Below the pieces are notes generated by a model that saw nothing but the letters and a program-made list of their open reading frames with translations, had not been told where the DNA came from and did no database searches. A stretch of 64,000 nt of DNA from an uncultured Candidatus Cenarchaeum sp. (GTDB lineage: Archaea > Thermoproteota > Nitrososphaeria > Nitrososphaerales > Nitrosopumilaceae). The stretch is taken from NCBI GenBank assembly GCA_958295735.1, contig OY282369.1, positions 666,161 through 730,160 of the forward strand. The letters are read 5' to 3'. Both the position numbers and the translations under genes were made by a program. How positions within the stretch are numbered: position 1 is the first letter of the stretch; each line of letters starts with the position of its first letter. Below are positions 4,235-41,025 of the stretch, piece by piece.

Positions 4235-6532
4235 ATGAAGATGAATTTCAGGCGCGTCGACGAGGCGCGCGGGCAAGACATCGGCACGGTATTCGCGTAT
4301 TTTGGCCAGATCATGTCGAGGCTGAAACGCGCCGACGACTACACGAAGAACTGCTGCACCACAGGGCTGGTCACGGTGATTGAGCAGTTCCTTAGGCATA
4401 CGGTCGAAACGCAACTCGAGGCAGGAAAGGTATCCCCCGGCGAGATTGTGGACGGCAAACTGCCTAGTCCCGAGCAGCATGACGGGGCAACGCTGAGGCG
4501 GCATATTGTTTTTGACCTGAATTTCCAGAATGTCAAGTCCATAAAAGACATCCTGAATAAAATCGGCAAGCCGGGCGCGTTCGACCGCTGCCTGAGCGAG
4601 CCGCGCCGGGCAACGCTCGAAGCCCTGTTCGCTCGCAGGCACTGCCTAGTCCACACGACCGTGAGGCAGCCGCCGATCGATGTCAACCGGTGTTTTGGAG
4701 CCGTCCTGACATTCATAAACTGCACCATGCTTGAGACAAACTCCAGCAGACGCCATTTCTACCTGTACATGGGAAACGGCCTGTTTGACTCGCGCGAGTA
4801 CCGGGAGGCGATCATGTACTACGACATGTTGCTTGCCGTACAGCGGGACGATCCCTACGCGCTTGCCAGAAAGGGGGAGTCGCTTGCGGTGATGGGGCGG
4901 CACGAGGAGGCGGTGGCGTGCTACGACCGGGCCCTGGATCTGGACGACTCTGCGCTTGCCAGAAAGGGGGAGTCGCTTGCGGAACTGGGGCGGCGCGAGG
5001 AGGCGGTGGCGTGCTACGACCGGGCCCTGGCACTGGATCCGGACAACCCGTACGCGCTTGCCAGAAAGGGGGAGTCGCTTGCGGAACTGGGGCGGCGCGA
5101 GGAGGCGGTGGCGTGCTACGACCGGGCCCTGGCACTGGATCCGGACGACTCGCATGTGCATGTCATGAAAGGGAAGTCGCTCGCGGGGATGGACAAGCAC
5201 GAGGAGGCGGTTATGCACTACGACAGGCGGCTGGGCATCGATCCGGACGACTCGGACGCGCTTGCCAGCAAGGGGGAGTCGCTCGCGGTGATGGGACAAT
5301 CCAAGGAGGCGGTGGCGTGCTACGACCGGGCCCCTGCCTTGGATCCAAACGATTTGCTTGCACATGTCATGAAAGGGGTGTCGCTTGCGGATGTGGGGCG
5401 GCACGAGGAGGCGGTGGCGTGCTACGACAGGGGGCTGGGCATCGATCCGGACGACTCGTTCGTACTTACCAGCAAGGGGGAGTCGCTTGCGGAGATGGGC
5501 AAGCACGAGGAGGCGGTGGCGTGCTACGACCGGGCCCTGGCACTGGATCCGGACGACTCGCACGTACATGTCATGAAAGGGATATCGCTTGCGGAGATGG
5601 GCAAGCACGAGGAGGCGGTGGCGTGCTACGACAGGGGGCTGGGCATCGATCCGGACGACTCGATCGCACTTACCAGCAAGGGGGAGTCGCTTGCGGAGAT
5701 GGGCAAGCACGAGGAGGCGGTGGCGTGCTACGACAGGGGGCTGGGCATCGATCCGGACGACTCGATCGCACTTACCAGCAAGGGGGAGTCGCTTGCGGAG
5801 ATGGGCAAGCACGAGGAGGCGGTGGCGTGCTACGACCGGGCCCTGGCACTGGATCCGGACGACTCGATCGCACTTACCAGCAAGGGGGAGTCGCTTGCGG
5901 AGATGGGCAAGCACGAGGAGGCGGTGGCGTGCTACGACCGGGCCCTGGCACTGGATCCGGACGACTCGCACGTACATGTCATGAAAGGGAAGTCGCTCGC
6001 GGAGATGGAGCGGCACGAGGAGGCGGTGGCGTGCTACGACAGGGGGCTGATCCTGAATCCAGACTACTCGCACGTACATGTCATGAAAGGAAAGTCGCTC
6101 GCGGAGATGGAGCGGCACGAGGAGGCGGTGGCGTGCTACGACAGGGGGCTGGCACTGGATCCGGCCGACTCGATCGTACTTACCAGCAAGGGGGAGTCGC
6201 TTGCAGTGATGGGACAATTCAAGGAGGCGGTGGCGTGCTACGACCTGGCCCTGGCCCGGGATCCTGATTACTCTCGCACGCATGTCATGAAAGGAAAGGC
6301 GCTTGCGGAACTGGGGCGGCACGAAGAGGCGGGCACGTGCTACGACAGGGGGCTGGACATCGATCCGGACGACTCCCATGCGCATGTCATGAAAGGAAAG
6401 GCGCTTGCGGAACTGGGGCGGCACGAAGAGGCAGTCATGTATTACGACAGGGGGCTGGACATCGATCCGGACGACTCGGACGCGCTTGCCAGAAGGGTGG
6501 AGTCGCTTGCGGAATTGGGGCGGCACACATAG
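4235..6532 (+). CDS. HEPN-domain protein with long TPR array, truncated by a nonsense codon
   Basis: About 765 aa. Residues 1-160 are helical and contain ARRHCLVHTTVRQPPID, matching the R-x4-H catalytic motif of HEPN ribonuclease domains (RNCIVH..G.VD type). From about residue 185 there are some 16 TPR units of 34 aa with consensus AVACYDRALALDPDDS followed by KGESLAEMGKHEE. The DNA repeats every 102 bp and neighbouring units are almost identical, so the array is being homogenised. GTG at 4229 and ATG at 4241 are alternative starts. The stop at 6530-6532 is a TAG where the repeat normally has GAG. The frame then continues to 6700 with another TPR half-unit, so the original gene was 56 codons longer. 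RNase activity is inferred only from the motif. Confidence 0.8.
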   Translation: MKMNFRRVDEARGQDIGTVFAYFGQIMSRLKRADDYTKNCCTTGLVTVIEQFLRHTVETQLEAGKVSPGEIVDGKLPSPEQHDGATLRRHIVFDLNFQNVKSIKDILNKIGKPGAFDRCLSEPRRATLEALFARRHCLVHTTVRQPPIDVNRCFGAVLTFINCTMLETNSSRRHFYLYMGNGLFDSREYREAIMYYDMLLAVQRDDPYALARKGESLAVMGRHEEAVACYDRALDLDDSALARKGESLAELGRREEAVACYDRALALDPDNPYALARKGESLAELGRREEAVACYDRALALDPDDSHVHVMKGKSLAGMDKHEEAVMHYDRRLGIDPDDSDALASKGESLAVMGQSKEAVACYDRAPALDPNDLLAHVMKGVSLADVGRHEEAVACYDRGLGIDPDDSFVLTSKGESLAEMGKHEEAVACYDRALALDPDDSHVHVMKGISLAEMGKHEEAVACYDRGLGIDPDDSIALTSKGESLAEMGKHEEAVACYDRGLGIDPDDSIALTSKGESLAEMGKHEEAVACYDRALALDPDDSIALTSKGESLAEMGKHEEAVACYDRALALDPDDSHVHVMKGKSLAEMERHEEAVACYDRGLILNPDYSHVHVMKGKSLAEMERHEEAVACYDRGLALDPADSIVLTSKGESLAVMGQFKEAVACYDLALARDPDYSRTHVMKGKALAELGRHEEAGTCYDRGLDIDPDDSHAHVMKGKALAELGRHEEAVMYYDRGLDIDPDDSDALARRVESLAELGRHT

Positions 6533-6700
6533 ACGGTAGCGTGCTACGACAGTGCATCGGCCATCGATCCCAACAACTATTCTGCCGTTGTGGGGAGATC
6601 CGAGCAGGCCGCGATCTTGGGTGCGTTGATGCTGGCAGACATTCGCCCCAACCATGCGTCAGTGCCAGATCCCAAGCCTTTGATCTTTGAGCCTTTCTGA
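6533..6700 (+). pseudogene. Cut-off 3' end of the HEPN-TPR gene
   Basis: In frame with the preceding gene after its premature TAG. It reads TVACYDSASAIDPNN, the next TPR unit, then a divergent non-repeat tail ending in LIFEPF before TGA at 6698-6700. A capping tail of this kind is what the C-terminus of a TPR array looks like, supporting a single G-to-T change as the cause of truncation. Confidence 0.7.
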
Positions 6701-12151: not shown

Positions 12152-12358
12152 GCGGCCGCGTGTGAGGTCAGCAACCCACACCGCAGGCGCGAATCAGGAT
12201 TAACGAAAGCGCTTTCGCGCCCGTGACTGACGCGTGCGTGACTTCACACGGCGGCCGCGCATGAGGTCACGTACCTGCTGGCCACAGGCGTGAAAGCGAC
12301 TTCGTTGATCCGCGTTCACGCCTGCGGAGCGGGGGTTGCTGGCCTCGTACGCGGCCGC
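12152..12358. repeat. Two stacked M2 elements separated by one 8-bp word
   Basis: Layout: GCGGCCGC (12152-12159), M2 copy 12160-12250, GCGGCCGC (12251-12258), inverted M2 copy 12259-12350, GCGGCCGC (12351-12358). The first copy has tips GTGTGAGGTC and GACTTCACAC, the second GCATGAGGTC and GGCCTCGTAC. The centre of the first contains the perfect palindrome CGAAAGCGCTTTCG. The three identical words at element-length spacing look like target duplications from successive insertions at one site. It lies between livH and the HARE-HTH gene, which are transcribed divergently. Confidence 0.85.
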
Positions 12359-27707: not shown

Positions 27708-27754
27708 GGCGGCCGGCGGGCAGCGCGCAATTTATGGGTTGGCATGCGGGCGGC

Positions 27755-29885
27755 GTACACACTTACCTCCCCCCCCCTCCCGCCGCGACTTGGCCGCCCG
27801 GGCGGGCCCGCGCGCCGCGCAAGCTTAGGCTGGCCTAAGGGTCGATTTGTATAATTGTGGCGAGTTTGGGCCTGCCGGCATGGCGGAATCCGGGGTGGCG
27901 CTGCTGCGCAAGGAACTGGCGGCCGCGTTGGAAAAGATCGCCGGGCTGGAAGCCGAGGCCGCGGAGCGGGCGGCCGAGATCGCGATGCTGAAGGCCAAGT
28001 CCACGGAGCAGGCGCTGCTGCGCAAGGAACTTGCGGCCTCGCTCGAAAAGATCGCCGGGCTGGAAGCCGAGGCCGCGGAGCGGGCGGCCGAGATCGCGAT
28101 GCTGAAGGCCAAGTCCACGGAGCAGGCGCTGCTGCGCAAGGAACTGGCGGCCGCGTTGGAAAAGATCGCCGGGCTGGAAGCCGAGAACTCCGGGCTGAAG
28201 GCCAAGGCCGCCGAGCAGGCGGTCAGGCTTGCCGTGTGCGACGGCCCGAACGCGCCCTCGTCGTCCCTCACCACGTACGGCCCCCGGCGGAACGCCTGGC
28301 GCAAGGAGCGGGGCTACAAGGGGAGCGACGGGGCCGGATCCGACGGCAAGCCCGCTCCGGACGGCGGCGCCCCGCGCAAGATGGGCCCGCCCCAAGGGCA
28401 CAAGGGCGTCTCGCACTGCAACAAGCCCGAGTTCACCATGAAGTGCGGGATCCTGACGTGCCCCGTGTGCTGCGGCCCCCTGGAGAAGTTCGACAGGTGG
28501 CGAAAGCTGGTCAACGACTTCGATCAGTTCTGGCGCGTGGTCACCGCGATGATCGAGGTGGAGACGGGCTGGTGCGGCAAGTGCGAGAAGTACTACGAGG
28601 CCCAGGCGCCGTTTCCGAAGGGCACCTCGTGCGGCCCGAGGGCGCTCGGCCTCATAATGGCGCTGTTCGAGATGGGCTGCACGGACGCGAGGATCGCCGG
28701 CTTTATCGAGTCCACGTTCTACTTCCGCATCTCGGAGGCGGCCGTGGCGAAGGCCAGGAGGGCCATGGCGGGCGCGTCAAAGAAGCAGCTGGAGGACATC
28801 AAGTGGGCGTTCCGCGAGAGCATGTTCGTGCACATGGACGAGACCGGGTTCAAGATCGGCGTGCTGGGCAAGACCGGCTACGTCTGGGTGGCCGTCGTGG
28901 GCAACGCCGTGTGGGTGCACTTCGCGCCCACCCGGGGGGCGGCGGTCCTGAGGGAGCACTTCGGCTGGCTGTCCCGCAGGGCGGTGGTGGCCGACGGGCT
29001 GCCGGCGTACCGCGCGTGGTTCCAGCATCTGCAGAGATGCTGCAGGCACCTGCTCGCCAAGGGCGAGGCCGTCGCCGTGGACGGCGACCCGGGGGACGAG
29101 GCGAGGCACGACTGGATGCAGGGGTACTACCACAAGATACACGGCATCAAGACGCTGGCGCCGTTCACCGTGACGTACCTGGCCAAGGAGTTCCACGACG
29201 CCGTGTCGGCGTACCCCGACGGCAAGCTGAAGACGCACCTCGCCAACGCCGAGCCGCACGTGCTCACGTTCATGGGATTCCGCGGCATGCCGCCCCACAA
29301 CAACCCCGCCGAGCTCGCCATACGCGACCTCATAGTGACGCAGCGCAATGCGCACCACAAGATCTCCACGCCGGAGGGGCGCAAGACGTTCTCCGAGCTG
29401 GTCACGATCGGGGGCACCGCCCGCATGAACGGCATGTTCCCGGGCAGGGCCTTCACCGAGATCGCCCGCAATCGCGACTGGAAAATGTTCGACCCCGGCC
29501 CGTGGGCCGGGCCCGACTGGTGCGTCTTCGATGACCCCGCATCCGGGCTGGTGCGCCCGCCCGGCTCCGCGGCGGGGCGGGCGCCGGCTCCGGCAGCGGC
29601 GTCCGCCTGACCGGCCCCAGCGGATCTGCCGGGCGCGCGCGGGCGGCGTCAGCCCGCGTCAGGCATCGGGACGGAGCGCCGTACCGGGGCGGCCGCGCGC
29701 CGAAAATGCCCCGAACCCTGCCGCGATCGCGCGGCGCGCGCCGATCGGGGCAGCCCGGGCGCGCGGGGGGCGGCGCCCGCCCGCCGAAGGATCCCCGCTC
29801 CGGCCGCGATCGCGCGGCGCGCGCCGATCGGGGCAGCCCGGGCGCGCGGGGGGCGCCGGGAGGGGGGGGGGAGGTAAGTGTGTAC
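27755..29885 (+). mobile_element. IS66-family insertion sequence, intact (IS-A)
   Basis: 2131-bp element with ends GTACACACTTACCTCC and the complement at the right, each followed by a run of C/G, and a perfect 8-bp target duplication CGGGCGGC (27747-27754 and 29886-29893). It holds one transposase gene. In the 3' noncoding part a repeat of about 52 bp occurs twice (29721-29772 and 29804-29855). IS-B (38892-41025) is a near-identical copy in the opposite orientation. Its right duplication directly abuts the decayed IS-D. Confidence 0.95.
27880..29610 (+). CDS. IS66-family DDE transposase (IS-A)
   Basis: 576 aa. An N-terminal coiled coil built of two and a half copies of a 38-residue unit (LLRKELAAALEKIAGLEAEA...), a zinc-ribbon region (CGILTCPVCCGPL, later WCGKCEKYY), then the catalytic core: MDETGFKIG (Asp), VVADGLPAY (Asp) and PPHNNPAELAIRD (Glu). 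ATG 27880 is about 27 nt from GTATAATT at 27848-27855. Intact frame. Confidence 0.93.
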   Translation: MAESGVALLRKELAAALEKIAGLEAEAAERAAEIAMLKAKSTEQALLRKELAASLEKIAGLEAEAAERAAEIAMLKAKSTEQALLRKELAAALEKIAGLEAENSGLKAKAAEQAVRLAVCDGPNAPSSSLTTYGPRRNAWRKERGYKGSDGAGSDGKPAPDGGAPRKMGPPQGHKGVSHCNKPEFTMKCGILTCPVCCGPLEKFDRWRKLVNDFDQFWRVVTAMIEVETGWCGKCEKYYEAQAPFPKGTSCGPRALGLIMALFEMGCTDARIAGFIESTFYFRISEAAVAKARRAMAGASKKQLEDIKWAFRESMFVHMDETGFKIGVLGKTGYVWVAVVGNAVWVHFAPTRGAAVLREHFGWLSRRAVVADGLPAYRAWFQHLQRCCRHLLAKGEAVAVDGDPGDEARHDWMQGYYHKIHGIKTLAPFTVTYLAKEFHDAVSAYPDGKLKTHLANAEPHVLTFMGFRGMPPHNNPAELAIRDLIVTQRNAHHKISTPEGRKTFSELVTIGGTARMNGMFPGRAFTEIARNRDWKMFDPGPWAGPDWCVFDDPASGLVRPPGSAAGRAPAPAAASA

Positions 29886-29893
29886 CGGGCGGC

Positions 29894-32042
29894 GTGTGGA
29901 CTCACGTCCACTTGCCGGCCGCGCCTGACGGGGGGCCGCCACGCAGGCGAGCAGTGCGCCGGCAGGCGCGGGGCTGCCGGAAAGCGGGCATTCCGCCCTG
30001 CCGGAGGGCCGCGGGGCGCGCTGCGGGCCAGCATTGTTTCGCCACCTTGTCGACGGTTGTCAGCACGCGCGCTTGAGGCCCGCACGCGCGTAACACTAGA
30101 CATGCCCGACTCAAACGGTGCTGGTGCGGAGGGAGCTGGTGGCGGTGACCCGCCGCTTGGCGGCCCTGGAGGCAAAACGCGCGGAACTCGCCGAGGACAG
30201 GCGGCTGGAGTCGGCCGAAACGCGTGGCGAAATCGGCCGCCTCGGGGCCGTGGAGGCGCAGCACGCCGGCTGCGCCGAGAACAGGCTGGAACTTGACAGG
30301 CTGCAGGGCGAAAACGATCGCCTCAGGGCCGAGTTGGCGGCGGCGCTGGGCAACAAGGCGGAGAACGCGGCGGCGGGGCGGGGCGGAGGCGGCGGCCGCG
30401 ATGCGGCCGTGGCGGAGAGGAACGCCGCCGCCAAGCCGGCCGCCCCCGCCCCCGCCGCCAAGCCGGCCGGGCGGAGAAGGGCGCCGCCTGCGCGGGGTGC
30501 GGCGAGCTGGCCGCGAAGCTGAAAAAGGCCGAGAAGCGGATCAACTCGTGCGACAGTTACAACAAGCCCGATGCGGAAAGGCACAACGCCGACAGGGCCA
30601 AGTTCCGCAGAGACCACGGCGCGCACGACGGCGATCGCAAGCCGAGAAAGAAGATGGGCCCGCCCGTCGGGCACAAGGGGGTGTCGCACTCGCGCAAGTC
30701 GGAGGAGGCGCGCTACTGCCCCCTTTTGGCGTGCGGGTACTGCGGGTTGGCCGAGCATCTGCACGCGGAGCGGCCCCGCAACAAACAATACGTCGAGCTG
30801 GACGGCGCCGGGAAGATCGGGGTCTCCCGCATCTCGGCCGGGCGGGCCTGGTGCGCGAGGTGCTGCAGGATCAGCACGGCAAAGTCGGAGTCGATTCCGG
30901 GCACCCACATGGGAGCAGGGCTACTCGGGTCCGCGGTCGCCTGCATCGCGAAAGCCATGCCGTACGCGTCCGTCGCCGAGCTCGTGGAGGAGCTGTACGG
31001 CGTCAGGATGGCGCAGACCGCCGCCATCAGCGCCCACGAGGCCGCCGCCAACCTGCCGGAGCCGGGAGACCGGCGCGTCGCGGATCACGTCCGGGACAGC
31101 GGCGGATGCGGGCAGGCCGACGAGACCCCCTCCAAGGTGCGCGGAAAGCGGGGGTACGCGTGGCTGGTCTGCTGCAGGGATGCGGTGCGCGTGGGGTTCC
31201 CGGGCAGCAGGGCGGCGGCCGTGCCGGGCCTGTACTTTCCCGAGGTGAAGGGCAAGCCGATGGTGACCGACGGGTACTCGGGGCACAACGGGATAGACGT
31301 GAGGCAGATCTGCCTCACCCGCCTGCTGCGGCGCGCCGAGAGCTTCGCGATCCGCTCCGCGGGCGGGGAGCGCGGGGAGCTGCACCTGCTGCTGTGCCTG
31401 CGGCTCCGCTACACGTACCGGAGGATCTCCCGCATCGACACGGCGGGCGAGGCCGCCATCCGGGAGCTGGAGAAGCAGGTGCTGGAGATCGCGGGAGGGT
31501 ACGGCGGGGAGCACGCGATGCGCACCGCCCTCGTCAACGCGCTGCCCTGCATGTTCACGTTCTTGGGGCATCCCGGCATGCCCTGCCACAACAGCCGCGT
31601 CGAGCAGGCGGCACGCGAGGGGCCGGCCAGGGAAAAGAGGTCGCGGCGCCAGCTGAGGAGCGCGGCCGGCATGCGCCGCCTCCCCATAACGTGCACCGTG
31701 TTCCAGACGCGCGGGCGCCTAGGAATCTGGCCGTCGGCCGCGCTGAAGGCCCTCCGCGCCGACCCGGAATGGGACATGTTCGCGCATCCCGCCACCTGGC
31801 CGCCGAGGGCCCCGGCGGCGGTAGCCGCCTGACCGCCGGCAGCGGCCCGCGCGATGCCGCCGCGCGCGCGCCGGGATAGCGCGGGCGGCAGCATCCGCCC
31901 CGGATGCCGGCACGGCCCCGGGCGGGGCCCGTCCCGGCGGCGGATCGGGCGCGATGCCGCGCCGCCTTGTCGGGGGCGGGCCCCGCGGCGCCGGCCGGCG
32001 GCAGCTTTCGGGCGCGGCCGGCAAGTGGGCGTGAGTCCACAC
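29894..32042 (+). mobile_element. Decayed IS66-family element (IS-D)
   Basis: Left end GTGTGGACTCACGTCCA, followed by CTTGCCGGCCGCGCC, is mirrored at the right end (GGCGCGGCCGGCAAGTGGGC then GTGAGTCCACAC, ending 32042). Internal transposase is frameshifted. A second copy of its right end lies at 32420-32518 and is followed by CGGGCGGC, the same word that precedes the left end (29886-29893). The original insertion may therefore have run to 32518, with later rearrangement. Confidence 0.8.
30102..31832 (+). pseudogene. Frameshifted IS66-family transposase (IS-D)
   Basis: ATG 30102 starts MPDSNG, but LVRRELVAVTRRLAALE, which should follow (compare LLRKELAAALEKIAGLE in IS-A), is in the next frame. 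A second shift near 30440-30480 moves to the frame encoding GAACAGCGELAAKLKKAEKR and onward to AVAA at 31832. The catalytic residues are still visible: ADETPSKV, VTDGYSGHNG and CHNSRVEQAAR. Related to the IS-A transposase by its layout (KKMGPPVGHKGVSH and a DWxMF-type C-terminus) but clearly a separate lineage. Two frameshifts make it inactive unless recoded. Confidence 0.85.
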
Positions 32043-32419
32043 CTGCCAGAACTACCAAGATTTATTAAGAAATCAGTTGGAGGGGACGGCAGGGTCTCAG
32101 CGTCACGGCTTTCATCATCCGATGTCAGCTAAACGCCCGTCATGACGCTCGGCCCTTTTTGTAGCCATCATTGACCCCGCCGTCCCGTGGGTTGCCAGAT
32201 TGTAGCATTTTGTTTGTTACCTACGCATCTATGTGTAGACTTACGTCCATCGTGATCTGGGCGTGAGATCATGAGGTGGCTTGCCGTTGCTAGGCGTGGT
32301 TCCGGTTTGGACGCAAGTCTACACTTTTCAAATTTGCAGAGACTTTTTGACGGCGCTATACTGTGTTTGCCGCGGGCGGCGCGAGCCTGCGCCCAAAACC
32401 TACACCTAGGACGTACTGG
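32043..32419. other. AT-richer foreign-looking patch between two IS-D right ends
   Basis: About 380 bp of much lower GC than the surroundings, containing the M1 element 32233-32324. It includes a 14-bp inverted repeat (GGGACGGCAGGGTC at 32083-32096; GACCCCGCCGTCCC at 32173-32186) around 76 bp. No gene recognised. Confidence 0.55.
32233..32324. repeat. M1 element (92 bp)
   Basis: Ends GTGTAGACTTACGTCCA and TGGACGCAAGTCTACAC. Nearly the same sequence and exactly the same length as the copy at 36904-36995. No target duplication here. The tip differs from that of IS-D by only 2 of 17 bases. Confidence 0.85.
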
Positions 32420-32518
32420 ATCGGGCGCGATGCGGCGCCGGCTTGGCGGGGGCGGGCCGCGCGGCGCCGGCCGGCGGCAGCTTTCGGGCGCGGCCGGCAA
32501 GTGGACGTGAGTCCGCGC
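32420..32518. repeat. Solo right end of an IS-D-type element
   Basis: About 99 bp closely matching 31942-32042, the right end of IS-D (shared run GGCCGGCGGCAGCTTTCGGG), ending GTGGACGTGAGTCCGCGC. Followed at once by CGGGCGGC. Confidence 0.75.
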
Positions 32519-32526
32519 CGGGCGGC

Positions 32527-32616
32527 GCGCGGGCTCGGGTCCGCCGCGATCCGGGCGCGGGATCGGGGGGCGGTCCGCCGCTGCCGGGCGCGGCTTCGGC
32601 TTGGGCGAGTCCGCGC
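32527..32616. repeat. GC-drifted M1 element with 8-bp flanks
   Basis: 90 bp aligning with M1 with mostly transition differences (tip GCGCGGGCTCGGGTCC against GTGTAGACTTACGTCC). Flanked on both sides by CGGGCGGC (32519-32526 and 32617-32624). Confidence 0.7.
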
Positions 32617-32624
32617 CGGGCGGC

Positions 32625-36856: not shown

Positions 36857-36903
36857 GCGGGGCGTGGGGACCTCTTTGATTTAAGCATTTGCCAGAGGGA
36901 TCG

Positions 36904-36995
36904 GTGTAGACTTACGTCCATTGTGATCTAAGCGTGGGATCGCGGAGCGGATTGTTGCCGCTAGGCGTGGTTTCGGTTTGGACGTAAGTCTACAC
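36904..36995. repeat. M1 element (92 bp) with perfect 8-bp target duplication
   Basis: Ends GTGTAGACTTACGTCCA and TGGACGTAAGTCTACAC. Flanked by AGGGATCG at 36896-36903 and 36996-37003. It lies upstream of the small secreted-protein gene. It has no coding capacity and is too small to move by itself. Confidence 0.9.
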
Positions 36996-37003
36996 AGGGA
37001 TCG

Positions 37004-37287
37004 GCGCGGGGCCGGCGGCCCCCGCCCTGCAGGCGCGAATGCGGATCAACGGGGTCGTTTTCACGCCCGTGACCGACGGGCGCGTGACCCCGTGCGGGGA
37101 TCGGCGCGGGGCCGGCGGCCCCCGCCCTGCAGGCGCGGATCCGGGTCGGCGGAAGCGCTTTCGCTCCTGCGGCCGGCCGGCATCCGGCCCCGCGCGCGCG
37201 GGGTCAGCGGCCCCCGCCCTACAGGCGTGGATCCGGGTCGGCGGGACGGTTTTCGCTCCCGTGGCCGGCGGGCAGCTGGCCCCGTGC
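37004..37287. repeat. Three consecutive M2 elements
   Basis: Copies at 37004-37095, 37104-37195 and 37196-37287, each 92 bp and in the same direction. The first is bounded by AGGGATCG and GGGGATCG (37096-37103), making an exact 100-bp period with the M1 copy before it; the second and third abut directly. All hold the M2 core GCAGGCGCGGATCCGG-type arm and a TTTTCRC..CC facing arm. The third copy overlaps the 3' end of the coiled-coil gene. Confidence 0.85.
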
Positions 37288-37896
37288 CGGCGCCTCGCCC
37301 CGCGCGGCAGGATCGGCATCCGTCTTTCCCCTTTCCGCGGCACCGTCGCGCGCCGGCAACCATGCCGCCAGGGGAGTATTGCTCTGGCCGGGTTCCCGCA
37401 TCCCGCCCACGGCCTCTTCGACTTCGCCCAGCCGGTACTCCACGTCGCCCTTTTCCTCGCTTATCCTCCACTCTAGGTCGGAGATCCGGTCCGTCGCATC
37501 CAGCCCGCCCGCCACCTCCTCCTTCAGGTCGGAGATCTGCTCCTTCGCGTCCTCCAGCCCGCCCGCCACCTCCTCCTTCAGGTCGGAGATCTGCTCCTTC
37601 GCGTCCTCCAGCCCGCCCGCCACCTCCTCCTTCAGGTCGGAGATCTGCTCCTTCGCGTCCTCCAGCCCGCCCGCCACCTCCTCCTTCAGGTCGGAGATCT
37701 GCTCCTTCGCGTCCTCCAGCCCGCCCGCCACCTCCTCCTTCAGGTCGGAGATCTGCTCCTTCGCGTCCTCCAGCCCGCCCGCCTTCTCGTCCAGGCTGTC
37801 CGATATCGCCCCCACCGCGGATGCCAGCTCCCCCAGCTGTTCTCTCATTTCTTCGACCGCTTGCTCGAGATACGGCAGGCTGTACTCGTCGCTCAT
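37219..37896 (-). CDS. Coiled-coil repeat protein of unknown function
   Basis: About 225 aa. MSDEYSLPYLEQAVEEMREQ begins a long coiled coil whose centre is five exact 18-residue units (GGLEDAKEQISDLKEEVA, 54-bp DNA repeat) and a sixth diverged one (GGLDATDRISDLEWRI). ATG 37896 is about 27 nt from GTTATTA at 37921-37927. The last 20-25 residues (GSENRPADPDPRL and stop) are encoded by an M2 element, so the natural C-terminus was replaced by insertion. No family recognised; structural or scaffolding roles are possible. Confidence 0.75.
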   Translation of the reverse strand: MSDEYSLPYLEQAVEEMREQLGELASAVGAISDSLDEKAGGLEDAKEQISDLKEEVAGGLEDAKEQISDLKEEVAGGLEDAKEQISDLKEEVAGGLEDAKEQISDLKEEVAGGLEDAKEQISDLKEEVAGGLDATDRISDLEWRISEEKGDVEYRLGEVEEAVGGMREPGQSNTPLAAWLPARDGAAERGKTDADPAARGEAPARGQLPAGHGSENRPADPDPRL

Positions 37897-37935
37897 GGCG
37901 GACGGATCTATTCCCGGCGTAATAACTCGTGTGCG

Positions 37936-38110
37936 GCCGGGACCGCGGGGGGCCGCATGCCCGGCTGCGGCGAGCGCGGAAGCGTTTTCGCCGATCCGGA
38001 TCCGCGCCAGCGGGGATCCGCGCGCCCGTTGCGCAAGAACAGGCATGCCCCTCCGAGGCGCGGATCCGGATCGGGAGTGCCCCCGCCCGCGGCTGGCGGG
38101 CGCGCGGCCC
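37936..38110. repeat. Two decayed M2 elements
   Basis: An inverted copy at about 37936-38030 (GGAAGCGTTTTCGCCGATCC then GGATCCGCGCC) and a partial direct copy at about 38047-38110 (GAGGCGCGGATCCGGATCGG). Both are strongly GC-drifted, boundaries approximate. Confidence 0.5.
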
Positions 38111-38195
38111 GGAGCCGCGGATCAGCGGGCCGCCCCTCCCCGCCCGCGCAGCCGGCCGGCCGGCCGCCGCTTTTTCCTTTTGGCCCGCCGGCACC

Positions 38196-38287
38196 GTACT
38201 AGGTCAGCAACCACCGCTCCCCGGGCGCGAATCCGGATCAACGAAGCGGTTTTCGCGCCTGCGACTAGCGAGTGCGAGACCTCGTGC
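38196..38287. repeat. M2 element (92 bp) with perfect 8-bp target duplication
   Basis: Tips GTACTAGGTC and GACCTCGTGC; core GGGCGCGAATCCGGATCAAC then TTTTCGCGCCTGCG. Flanked by CCGGCACC at 38188-38195 and 38288-38295. This copy gives the clearest proof that M2 is a mobile element that duplicates 8 bp on insertion. Confidence 0.9.
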
Positions 38288-38334
38288 CCGGCACCCCCGC
38301 GGCGGCGGCGTCCCGCCGCCCCGGACGCCAGCCG

Positions 38335-38891: not shown

Positions 38892-41025
38892 GTACACACT
38901 TACCTCCCCCCCCCCCCCTCCCGGCGCCCCCCGCGCGCCCGGGCTGCCCCGATCGGCGCGCGCCGCGCGATCGCGGCCGGAGCGGGGATCCTTCGGCGGG
39001 CGGGCGCCGCCCCCCGCGCGCCCGGGCTGCCCCGATCGGCGCGCGCCGCGCGATCGCGGCAGGGTTCGGGGCATTTTCGGCGCGCGGCCGCCCCGGTACG
39101 GCGCTCCGTCCCGATGCCTGACGCGGGCTGACGCCGCCCGCGCGCGCCCGGCAGATCCGCTGGGGCCGGTCAGGCGGACGCCGCTGCCGGAGCCGGCGCC
39201 CGCCCCGCCGCGGAGCCGGGCGGGCGCACCAGCCCGGATGCGGGGTCATCGAAGACGCACCAGTCGGGCCCGGCCCACGGGCCGGGGTCGAACATTTTCC
39301 AGTCGCGATTGCGGGCGATCTCGGTGAAGGCCCTGCCCGGGAACATGCCGTTCATGCGGGCGGTGCCCCCGATCGTGACCAGCTCGGAGAACGTCTTGCG
39401 CCCCTCCGGCGTGGAGATCTTGTGGTGCGCATTGCGCTGCGTCACTATGAGGTCGCGTATGGCGAGCTCGGCGGGGTTGTTGTGGGGCGGCATGCCGCGG
39501 AATCCCATGAACGTGAGCACGTGCGGCTCGGCGTTGGCGAGGTGCGTCTTCAGCTTGCCGTCGGGGTACGCCGACACGGCGTCGTGGAACTCCTTGGCCA
39601 GGTACGTCACGGTGAACGGCGCCAGCGTCTTGATGCCGTGTATCTTGTGGTAGTACCCCTGCATCCAGTCGTGCCTCGCCTCGTCCCCCGGGTCGCCGTC
39701 CACGGCGACGGCCTCGCCCTTGGCGAGCAGGTGCCTGCAGCATCTCTGCAGATGCTGGAACCACGCGCGGTACGCCGGCAGCCCGTCGGCCACCACCGCC
39801 CTGCGGGACAGCCAGCCGAAGTGCTCCCTCAGGACCGCCGCCCCCCGGGTGGGCGCGAAGTGCACCCACACGGCGTTGCCCACGACGGCCACCCAGACGT
39901 AGCCGGTCTTGCCCAGCACGCCGATCTTGAACCCGGTCTCGTCCATGTGCACGAACATGCTCTCGCTGAACGCCCACTTGATCTCCTCCAGCTGCTTCTT
40001 CGACGCGCCCGCCATGGCCCTCCGGGCCTTCGCCACGGCCGCCTCCGAGATGCGGAAGTAGAACGTGGACTCGATAAAGCCGGCGATCCTCGCGTCCGTG
40101 CAGCCCATCTCGAACAGCGCCATTATGAGGCCGAGCGCCCTCGGGCCGCACGAGGTGCCCTTCGGAAACGGCGCCTGGGCCTCGTAGTACTTCTCGCACT
40201 TGCCGCACCAGCCCGTCTCCACCTCGATCATCGCGGTGACCACGCGCCAGAACTGATCGAAGTCGTTGACCAGCTTTCGCCACCTGTCGAACTTCTCCAG
40301 GGGGCCGCAGCACACGGGGCACGTCAGGATCCCGCACTTCATGGTGAACTCGGGCTTGTTGCAGTGCGAGACGCCCTTGTGCCCTTGGGGCGGGCCCATC
40401 TTGCGCGGGGCGCCGCCGTCCGGAGCGGGCTTGCCGTCGCTCCCGGCCCCGTCGCTCCCCTTGTAGCCCCGCTCCTTGCGCCAGGCGTTCCGCCGGGGGC
40501 CGTACGTGGTGAGGGACGACGAGGGCGCGTTCGGGCCGTCGCACACGGCAAGCCTGACCGCCTGCTCGGCGGCCTTGGCCTTCAGCCCGGCGTTCTCGGC
40601 TTCCAGCCCGGCGATCTTTTCCAACGCGGCCGCCAGTTCCTTGCGCAGCAGCGCCTGCTCCGTGGACTTGGCCTTCAGCATCGCGATCTCGGCCGCCCGC
40701 TCCGCGGCCTCGGCTTCCAGCCCGGCGATCTTTTCGAGCGAGGCCGCAAGTTCCTTGCGCAGCAGCGCCTGCTCCGTGGACTTGGCCTTCAGCATCGCGA
40801 TCTCGGCCGCCCGCTCCGCGGCCTCGGCTTCCAGCCCGGCGATCTTTTCCAACGCGGCCGCCAGTTCCTTGCGCAGCAGCGCCACCCCGGATTCCGCCAT
40901 GCCGGCAGGCCCAAACTCGCCACAATTATACAAATCGACCCTTAGGCCAGCCTAAGCTTGCGCGGCGCGCGGGCCCGCCCGGGCGGCCAAGTCGCGGCGG
41001 GAGGGGGGGGGAGGTAAGTGTGTAC
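38892..41025 (-). mobile_element. IS66-family insertion sequence, intact (IS-B)
   Basis: 2134-bp copy of IS-A in the opposite orientation, same tips (GTACACACTTACCTCC), with its own perfect 8-bp duplication GAGGCGCC (38884-38891 and 41026-41033). Its independent duplication shows it was inserted separately rather than arising by inversion. It stops about 15 bp short of the eL32 TATA box. Confidence 0.95.
39170..40900 (-). CDS. IS66-family DDE transposase (IS-B)
   Basis: 576 aa, differing from the IS-A protein at only a few positions (for example LEEIKWAFSES where IS-A has LEDIKWAFRES, and AENAGLK where it has AENSGLK). All catalytic residues and the coiled-coil repeats are kept. Start ATG 40900 by the same promoter argument as in IS-A. 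Confidence 0.93.
   Translation of the reverse strand: MAESGVALLRKELAAALEKIAGLEAEAAERAAEIAMLKAKSTEQALLRKELAASLEKIAGLEAEAAERAAEIAMLKAKSTEQALLRKELAAALEKIAGLEAENAGLKAKAAEQAVRLAVCDGPNAPSSSLTTYGPRRNAWRKERGYKGSDGAGSDGKPAPDGGAPRKMGPPQGHKGVSHCNKPEFTMKCGILTCPVCCGPLEKFDRWRKLVNDFDQFWRVVTAMIEVETGWCGKCEKYYEAQAPFPKGTSCGPRALGLIMALFEMGCTDARIAGFIESTFYFRISEAAVAKARRAMAGASKKQLEEIKWAFSESMFVHMDETGFKIGVLGKTGYVWVAVVGNAVWVHFAPTRGAAVLREHFGWLSRRAVVADGLPAYRAWFQHLQRCCRHLLAKGEAVAVDGDPGDEARHDWMQGYYHKIHGIKTLAPFTVTYLAKEFHDAVSAYPDGKLKTHLANAEPHVLTFMGFRGMPPHNNPAELAIRDLIVTQRNAHHKISTPEGRKTFSELVTIGGTARMNGMFPGRAFTEIARNRDWKMFDPGPWAGPDWCVFDDPASGLVRPPGSAAGRAPAPAAASA

Follow-up and report, generated by a model that had tools for sequence, protein, structure and literature searches.

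How IS66 elements choose their targets is, to our knowledge, poorly understood. Target-site duplications of 8 bp have been reported for the Paracoccus IS66 elements ISPpa5a and ISPpa7 (PMC3281130). IS30 has two kinds of target, namely hot-spot sequences and sites that adjoin its own inverted repeats (PMC9333248). Among bacterial MITEs, MITEPsy1 is about 100 bp long and has inverted repeats, and its adjacency with other elements is on record (PMC3189936).

The window, that is, the whole analysed stretch of 64,000 nucleotides, has a GC content of 69% and is part of one 3.17-Mb contig. The PEPCK encoded in this genome has 69% identity with the Nitrosopumilus enzyme, which puts the organism near Nitrosopumilaceae. 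At 36896-37287, the sequence-only reading had described one copy of the M1 element followed by M2 copies with a 100-bp period. Rereading of the sequence confirmed its coordinates and anatomy exactly (Table 1). The terminal inverted repeat of M1 is perfect over 16 bp (GTGTAGACTTACGTCC). The AGGGATCG 8-mer occurs on the + strand of the window at two sites only, both in the stack at 36896-37003. The level of identity among the M2a, M2b, and M2c copies is 76-85%. The junction at which M2b and M2c abut differs from the other junctions of the locus in having no spacer. No recognisable 8-bp duplication was found to the right of M2c; AGGATCGG comes 21 bp on, at 37309. An ORF on the minus strand (window 37219-38046), which contains identical 54-bp repeats encoding the coiled-coil-like SDLKEEVAGGLEDAKEQI, terminates inside M2c, and M2c would provide its last residues and stop codon. 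Elsewhere in the window, sixteen tandem repeat units of 102 bp are located at 4850-6679.

Table 1. Features of the locus, of the rest of the window, and of stacks found elsewhere in the genome. Positions are those of the window unless marked "genome".
Feature	Position	Strand	Remarks
Target-site duplication, 8 bp	36896..36903	.	AGGGATCG; left of M1
M1 MITE, 92 bp	36904..36995	+	Terminal inverted repeats of the ISA type of IS66; near-pristine, 1.1% off consensus
Spacer	36996..37003	.	AGGGATCG; common to M1 and M2a
M2a MITE, 92 bp	37004..37095	+	ISB-type IS66 ends; decayed, 23 changes relative to the consensus, mostly AT to GC
Spacer	37096..37103	.	GGGGATCG; equals AGGGATCG with one A-to-G change
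M2b MITE, 92 bp	37104..37195	+	First 34 bp identical to M2a
M2c MITE, 92 bp	37196..37287	+	Abuts M2b without a spacer
Solo M2 (38196-38287)	38188..38295	+	Duplication CCGGCACC
Second M2 stack	12152..12358		GCGGCCGC - M2(+) 12160-12250 - GCGGCCGC - M2(-) 12259-12350 - GCGGCCGC; opposite orientations
Heterotypic triple stack	27747..32624		CGGGCGGC - ISC IS66 27755-29885 - CGGGCGGC - ISA-type IS66 29894-32518 - CGGGCGGC - degenerate M1 32527-32616 - CGGGCGGC; 8-mer at all four boundaries
Transposase gene (IS66 family) of the ISC element	27847..29610	+
Second ISC IS66 copy	38892..41025	-	Duplication GAGGCGCC; inverted relative to 27755-29885
M2, M2, M1, M1 stack	genome 910796-911186		CCGGAGGC between members
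M2 and ISA stack	genome 383476-385892		CGGGGAGC three times
ISC and M1 stack	genome 1632074-1634308		GTCGTAGT three times
Further stacks with full IS66 elements	genome 176849-179081; genome 2199075-2201235

The members of the locus differ in age. M1 diverges from its consensus by 1.1% and M2a by 22.8%; the 8-mers on the two sides of M1 do not differ, and the spacer on the right of M2a has decayed by one A-to-G base. Because of this difference in divergence and the decayed right spacer, M1 should be later than M2a. Assuming similar substitution rates, the young M1 most likely landed in the duplication on the left of the old M2a. The M2 copies would thus have come first, and the young M1 would have been added afterwards on their left flank.

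Both families are abundant in this genome. M1 is represented by about 45 copies according to BLAST and by at least 150 according to a profile search, which also found at least 150 copies of M2. Among the matches listed, M1 has a length of 91-92 bp in 129 of 150 and M2 is exactly 92 bp long in 103 of 150. When small wobble of the boundaries was allowed, 8-bp duplications were recognised around 83 of the 140 M1 copies whose flanks were read (58 matching at 8/8 positions and 25 at 7/8) and around 90 of the 139 such M2 copies (48 and 42, respectively). Neither element was found in 60 relatives, and the Rfam search gave no match. Most of the differences between the decayed M2 copies and their consensus are AT-to-GC changes (19 of 23 in M2a, 27 of 33 in M2b, and 22 of 31 in M2c), a drift that amounts to a strong substitution bias in this archaeon with 69% GC; the analysed stretches of G016, another genome of the family, have 35% GC. 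Structural selection for pairing between the decayed M2 ends was considered and set aside, since AT-to-GC drift in both arms would itself preserve complementarity.

The origin of the two families is indicated by full IS66 elements. About 45 IS66 (PF03050) matches are present in the genome, and 31 full elements have both ends and an 8/8 duplication. By their terminal sequences, these fall into four groups: ISA (ends GTGTAGACTTACGTCCAT, 2318 bp; a variant with GTGTGGACTCACGTCCAC, 2244 bp), ISB (GTAYGAGGTCAGCACCCC, about 1.9 kb), ISC (GTACACACTTACCTCCCC, mostly 2.13 kb), and ISD (GTAATAGCTCACGATTTT, about 1.9 kb). The first 20 bp of M1 are identical to both ends of the 2318-bp ISA element at genome positions 383575-385892, and the first 24 bp of M2 are 91.7% identical to ISB1. 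The transposases match PF03050 (DDE_Tnp_IS66); NF033517 is the best match, and its cut-off is passed by ISB only. The level of identity of the ISA transposase is 26% with that of ISB and 30% with that of ISC. Scanning of viral contigs with the ISB transposase revealed no relatives. Judging by these sequences, M1 and M2 are both non-autonomous MITEs, each belonging to a different IS66 subfamily, since their ends match those of ISA and ISB, whose transposases differ to this extent. They would be moved in trans by the IS66-family DDE transposases of the two subfamilies, with 8 bp duplicated at each insertion. The earlier suggestion that the same machinery handles both families thus holds in kind, as there are IS66 elements with M1 ends and others with M2 ends, all with 8-bp duplications; it fails if a single enzyme is meant, given the 26% identity. 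All four sets of ends share GTR, as well as T, Y, and A at positions 9-11, and these common positions might permit cross-recognition.

The ISC group deserves two further remarks. Its two copies in the window are near-identical over 2.1 kb, inverted, and about 9 kb apart, which makes them a potential substrate for inversion. In addition, three pairs of ISC-type ends lie 202-215 bp apart (G000:C1:483519-483728, 878922-879123, and 1322615-1322829), which suggests a third, longer MITE family.

The length of 92 bp had been taken for a functional size, a claim that wide length variation among intact copies elsewhere would have refuted. The length is in fact tight within each family, but the size is not general: another genus has an 81-bp MITE whose ends are M2-like, and the three ISC end pairs of this genome lie farther apart. 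The shared length of M1 and M2 is a matter of inheritance and not a general functional size.

The stacking at 36896-37287 is real, and it is broader than had been noticed, extending across the genome. When neighbour gaps were measured among 331 mapped elements, 30 pairs were separated by exactly 8 bp, whereas 0.03 were expected, which excludes chance. Forty pairs have gaps of 6-9 bp, and there are nine other pairs within 0-100 bp. In 24 of the 29 sequenced cases, the 8-bp spacer is identical to an outer duplication; in the cross-stack control, seven or more matching positions were seen in 2.7%. When the surroundings of every element were searched for IS66-type ends, 54 observations of an end fell at 8 bp, a number in which each pair may be counted twice, and few fell elsewhere. 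Pairing is random with respect to family (18 of 35 MITE pairs are homotypic, with 17.5 expected), and the orientation is the same in 27 pairs, convergent in 9, and divergent in 7. The divergence of stacked partners is uncorrelated (rho -0.10 and -0.03). Since stacked partners differ in age, the insertions were sequential. Selection for safe intergenic sites was also considered and rejected, because it would not give a spike in one register. A loose scan for third-party elements sharing a duplication returned mainly GC-rich noise and was less informative than the search for known IS66 ends. At G000:C1:1649937-1650137, M2 and M1 are 17 bp apart, and the gap resembles two duplications (AACCGCCC C GACCGCCC); this is possibly the footprint of an excised element. 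The elements themselves are ordinary in kind, being IS66 MITEs; it is the in-register, family-blind stacking that is unusual.

Taken as a whole, these data are best explained by IS66-type MITEs in which a resident element is the landing pad for later insertions, and we regard this explanation as probable. What can be read directly in the DNA is that the elements are of the IS66 type, that they share 8-bp duplications, and that their stacking was sequential and blind to family. As for the mechanism, an older element would serve as a landing pad for IS66-type elements that arrive later, whatever their subfamily or orientation. Each newcomer would insert exactly into the 8 bp flanking the resident, giving the order duplication-element-duplication-element-duplication. 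One of the two strand-transfer positions would then fall on the element boundary, and, from the chemistry of DDE enzymes, this boundary bond would be the one whose cleavage by the transposase is required for mobilisation of the resident. The attractant for the new insertion would be the end of the resident, either its transposase-bound terminal repeat or the base of its hairpin.

A more specific version can be put forward tentatively, with a chance that we place slightly short of even: IS66 transposases of several subfamilies may recognise IS66-type ends of every kind, including decayed ones and the hairpins formed by them, and may insert in register into the adjoining 8 bp. MITEs would then be safe landing pads for all IS66-type elements of the genome. 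Few stacks can be ordered in time. Several pristine M1 copies adjoin M2 ends that match only 7-10 of 14 consensus bases, which makes it doubtful that the M1 transposase recognises the resident repeat in the classical, sequence-specific way. Because pristine copies stand beside such decayed ends, the resident hairpin may be the cue. In this variant, the landing mark is the hairpin or cruciform of the resident MITE and not the sequence of its repeat, and insertion occurs 8 bp outside the base. M1 folds into a near-perfect hairpin, and its young copies adjoin M2 ends whose sequence identity has been lost, as the variant would have it. However, the complementarity of M2 ends is moderate (median 8/14), and full IS66 elements of about 2 kb, for which no such hairpin is expected, occur in stacks as well, even if the resident in those cases may have been the MITE. 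On balance, we find a purely structural mark rather unlikely.

It could also be supposed that the 8-mer, or a local hot spot of sequence, is itself the preferred target and that the resident element is irrelevant. The 8-mer is indeed common to all members of a stack, and the targets of solo copies are slightly richer in G+C than the background. However, solo targets contain only about 0.9 bit of information over 8 positions, and neither a consensus nor dyad symmetry was found in them. The 24 spacer 8-mers have 6,900 copies away from any element in 592 kb, with 3 insertions there, and 27 confirmed secondary insertions at copies beside an element. A preference for the 8-mer itself is therefore very improbable. 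Nor is the target word that the sequence-only reading saw in both families a word recognised by the machinery: each stack has its own 8-mer, and the preference at solo sites is slight.

Tandem duplication or unequal recombination of an element together with its 8-bp flank would produce similar arrays, and some copies look as if they had arisen in this way: those at genome positions 364450 and 364550 agree in their scores and in their ends, and M2a and M2b coincide over their initial segment. Such an origin of the stacks in general has very little to recommend it, given that about half of the MITE pairs are heterotypic, the members of 16 of 43 pairs point in opposite directions, and even homotypic partners are dissimilar in divergence (rho -0.03). 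Family-random pairing, mixed orientation, and uncorrelated divergence show that stacks do not in general arise by tandem duplication or by co-insertion; duplication is refuted as their general origin and may act locally.

A selected functional array of 92-bp units (a regulatory, RNA, or repeat-spacer system) is hardly credible, for the constancy of unit length in two families is outweighed by the lack of an Rfam match, the decay of copies by AT-to-GC drift, the transposon duplications borne by most intact copies, and the different lengths of related families. A CRISPR or other tandem repeat array, with constant repeats, variable spacers, and an integrase or array RNA, was likewise rejected, since the unit ends are IS66 ends and Rfam gave no match.

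In G016 (loci L371-L383), many IS66 elements were found, some with GTATGAGGTCAGCT ends and 8-bp duplications. Five of these loci (L371, L374, L375, L377, and L383) contain the 81-bp MITE with its IS66 partners. In L383, one MITE lies 9 bp from an IS66 end, which makes a candidate stack at most; a clear one, with duplications in common, was not found in G016. IS66 MITEs of the M2 type therefore occur in another genus of the family, which does not by itself establish stacking there.

The observed stacking suggests a poorly known way in which IS66-type transposons choose a landing site. One genome offers a natural experiment with dozens of in-register secondary insertions that are blind to the subfamily, the 8-mer sequence, and the age of the resident. 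If confirmed, this would mean end-directed targeting without self-specificity, and also a route by which transposons build up at occupied neutral sites and form tandem-looking arrays without duplication.

As in the tnpC-only type of the IS66 family (PF03050), the elements described here have a PF03050 transposase, 8-bp duplications, and GTA/GTG ends, with GTAA in one subfamily. Unlike IS66 elements, M1 and M2 encode nothing and have only about 20-25 terminal bases in common with the full elements. Our literature search for IS66 stacking in shared duplications, or for stacking of IS66 MITEs, found no description. Bacterial MITEs of the MITEPsy1 type belong to other IS families and have other duplication lengths, and the accessible part of the MITEPsy1 report (PMC3189936) describes no stacking with shared duplications in one register.

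The closest parallel is IS30, which also inserts directly beside a resident end, as the pairs at exactly 8 bp do here. IS30 targets its own repeats, whereas here heterotypic pairs are as common as in random pairing. Moreover, in the reactive junctions formed by IS30 the ends are about 2 bp apart, while here they are separated by an 8-bp spacer identical to the duplication, and residents of other subfamilies are used just as well. By analogy, IS30 may be regarded as a precedent for end-directed targeting, the effect in this genome being blind to the subfamily.
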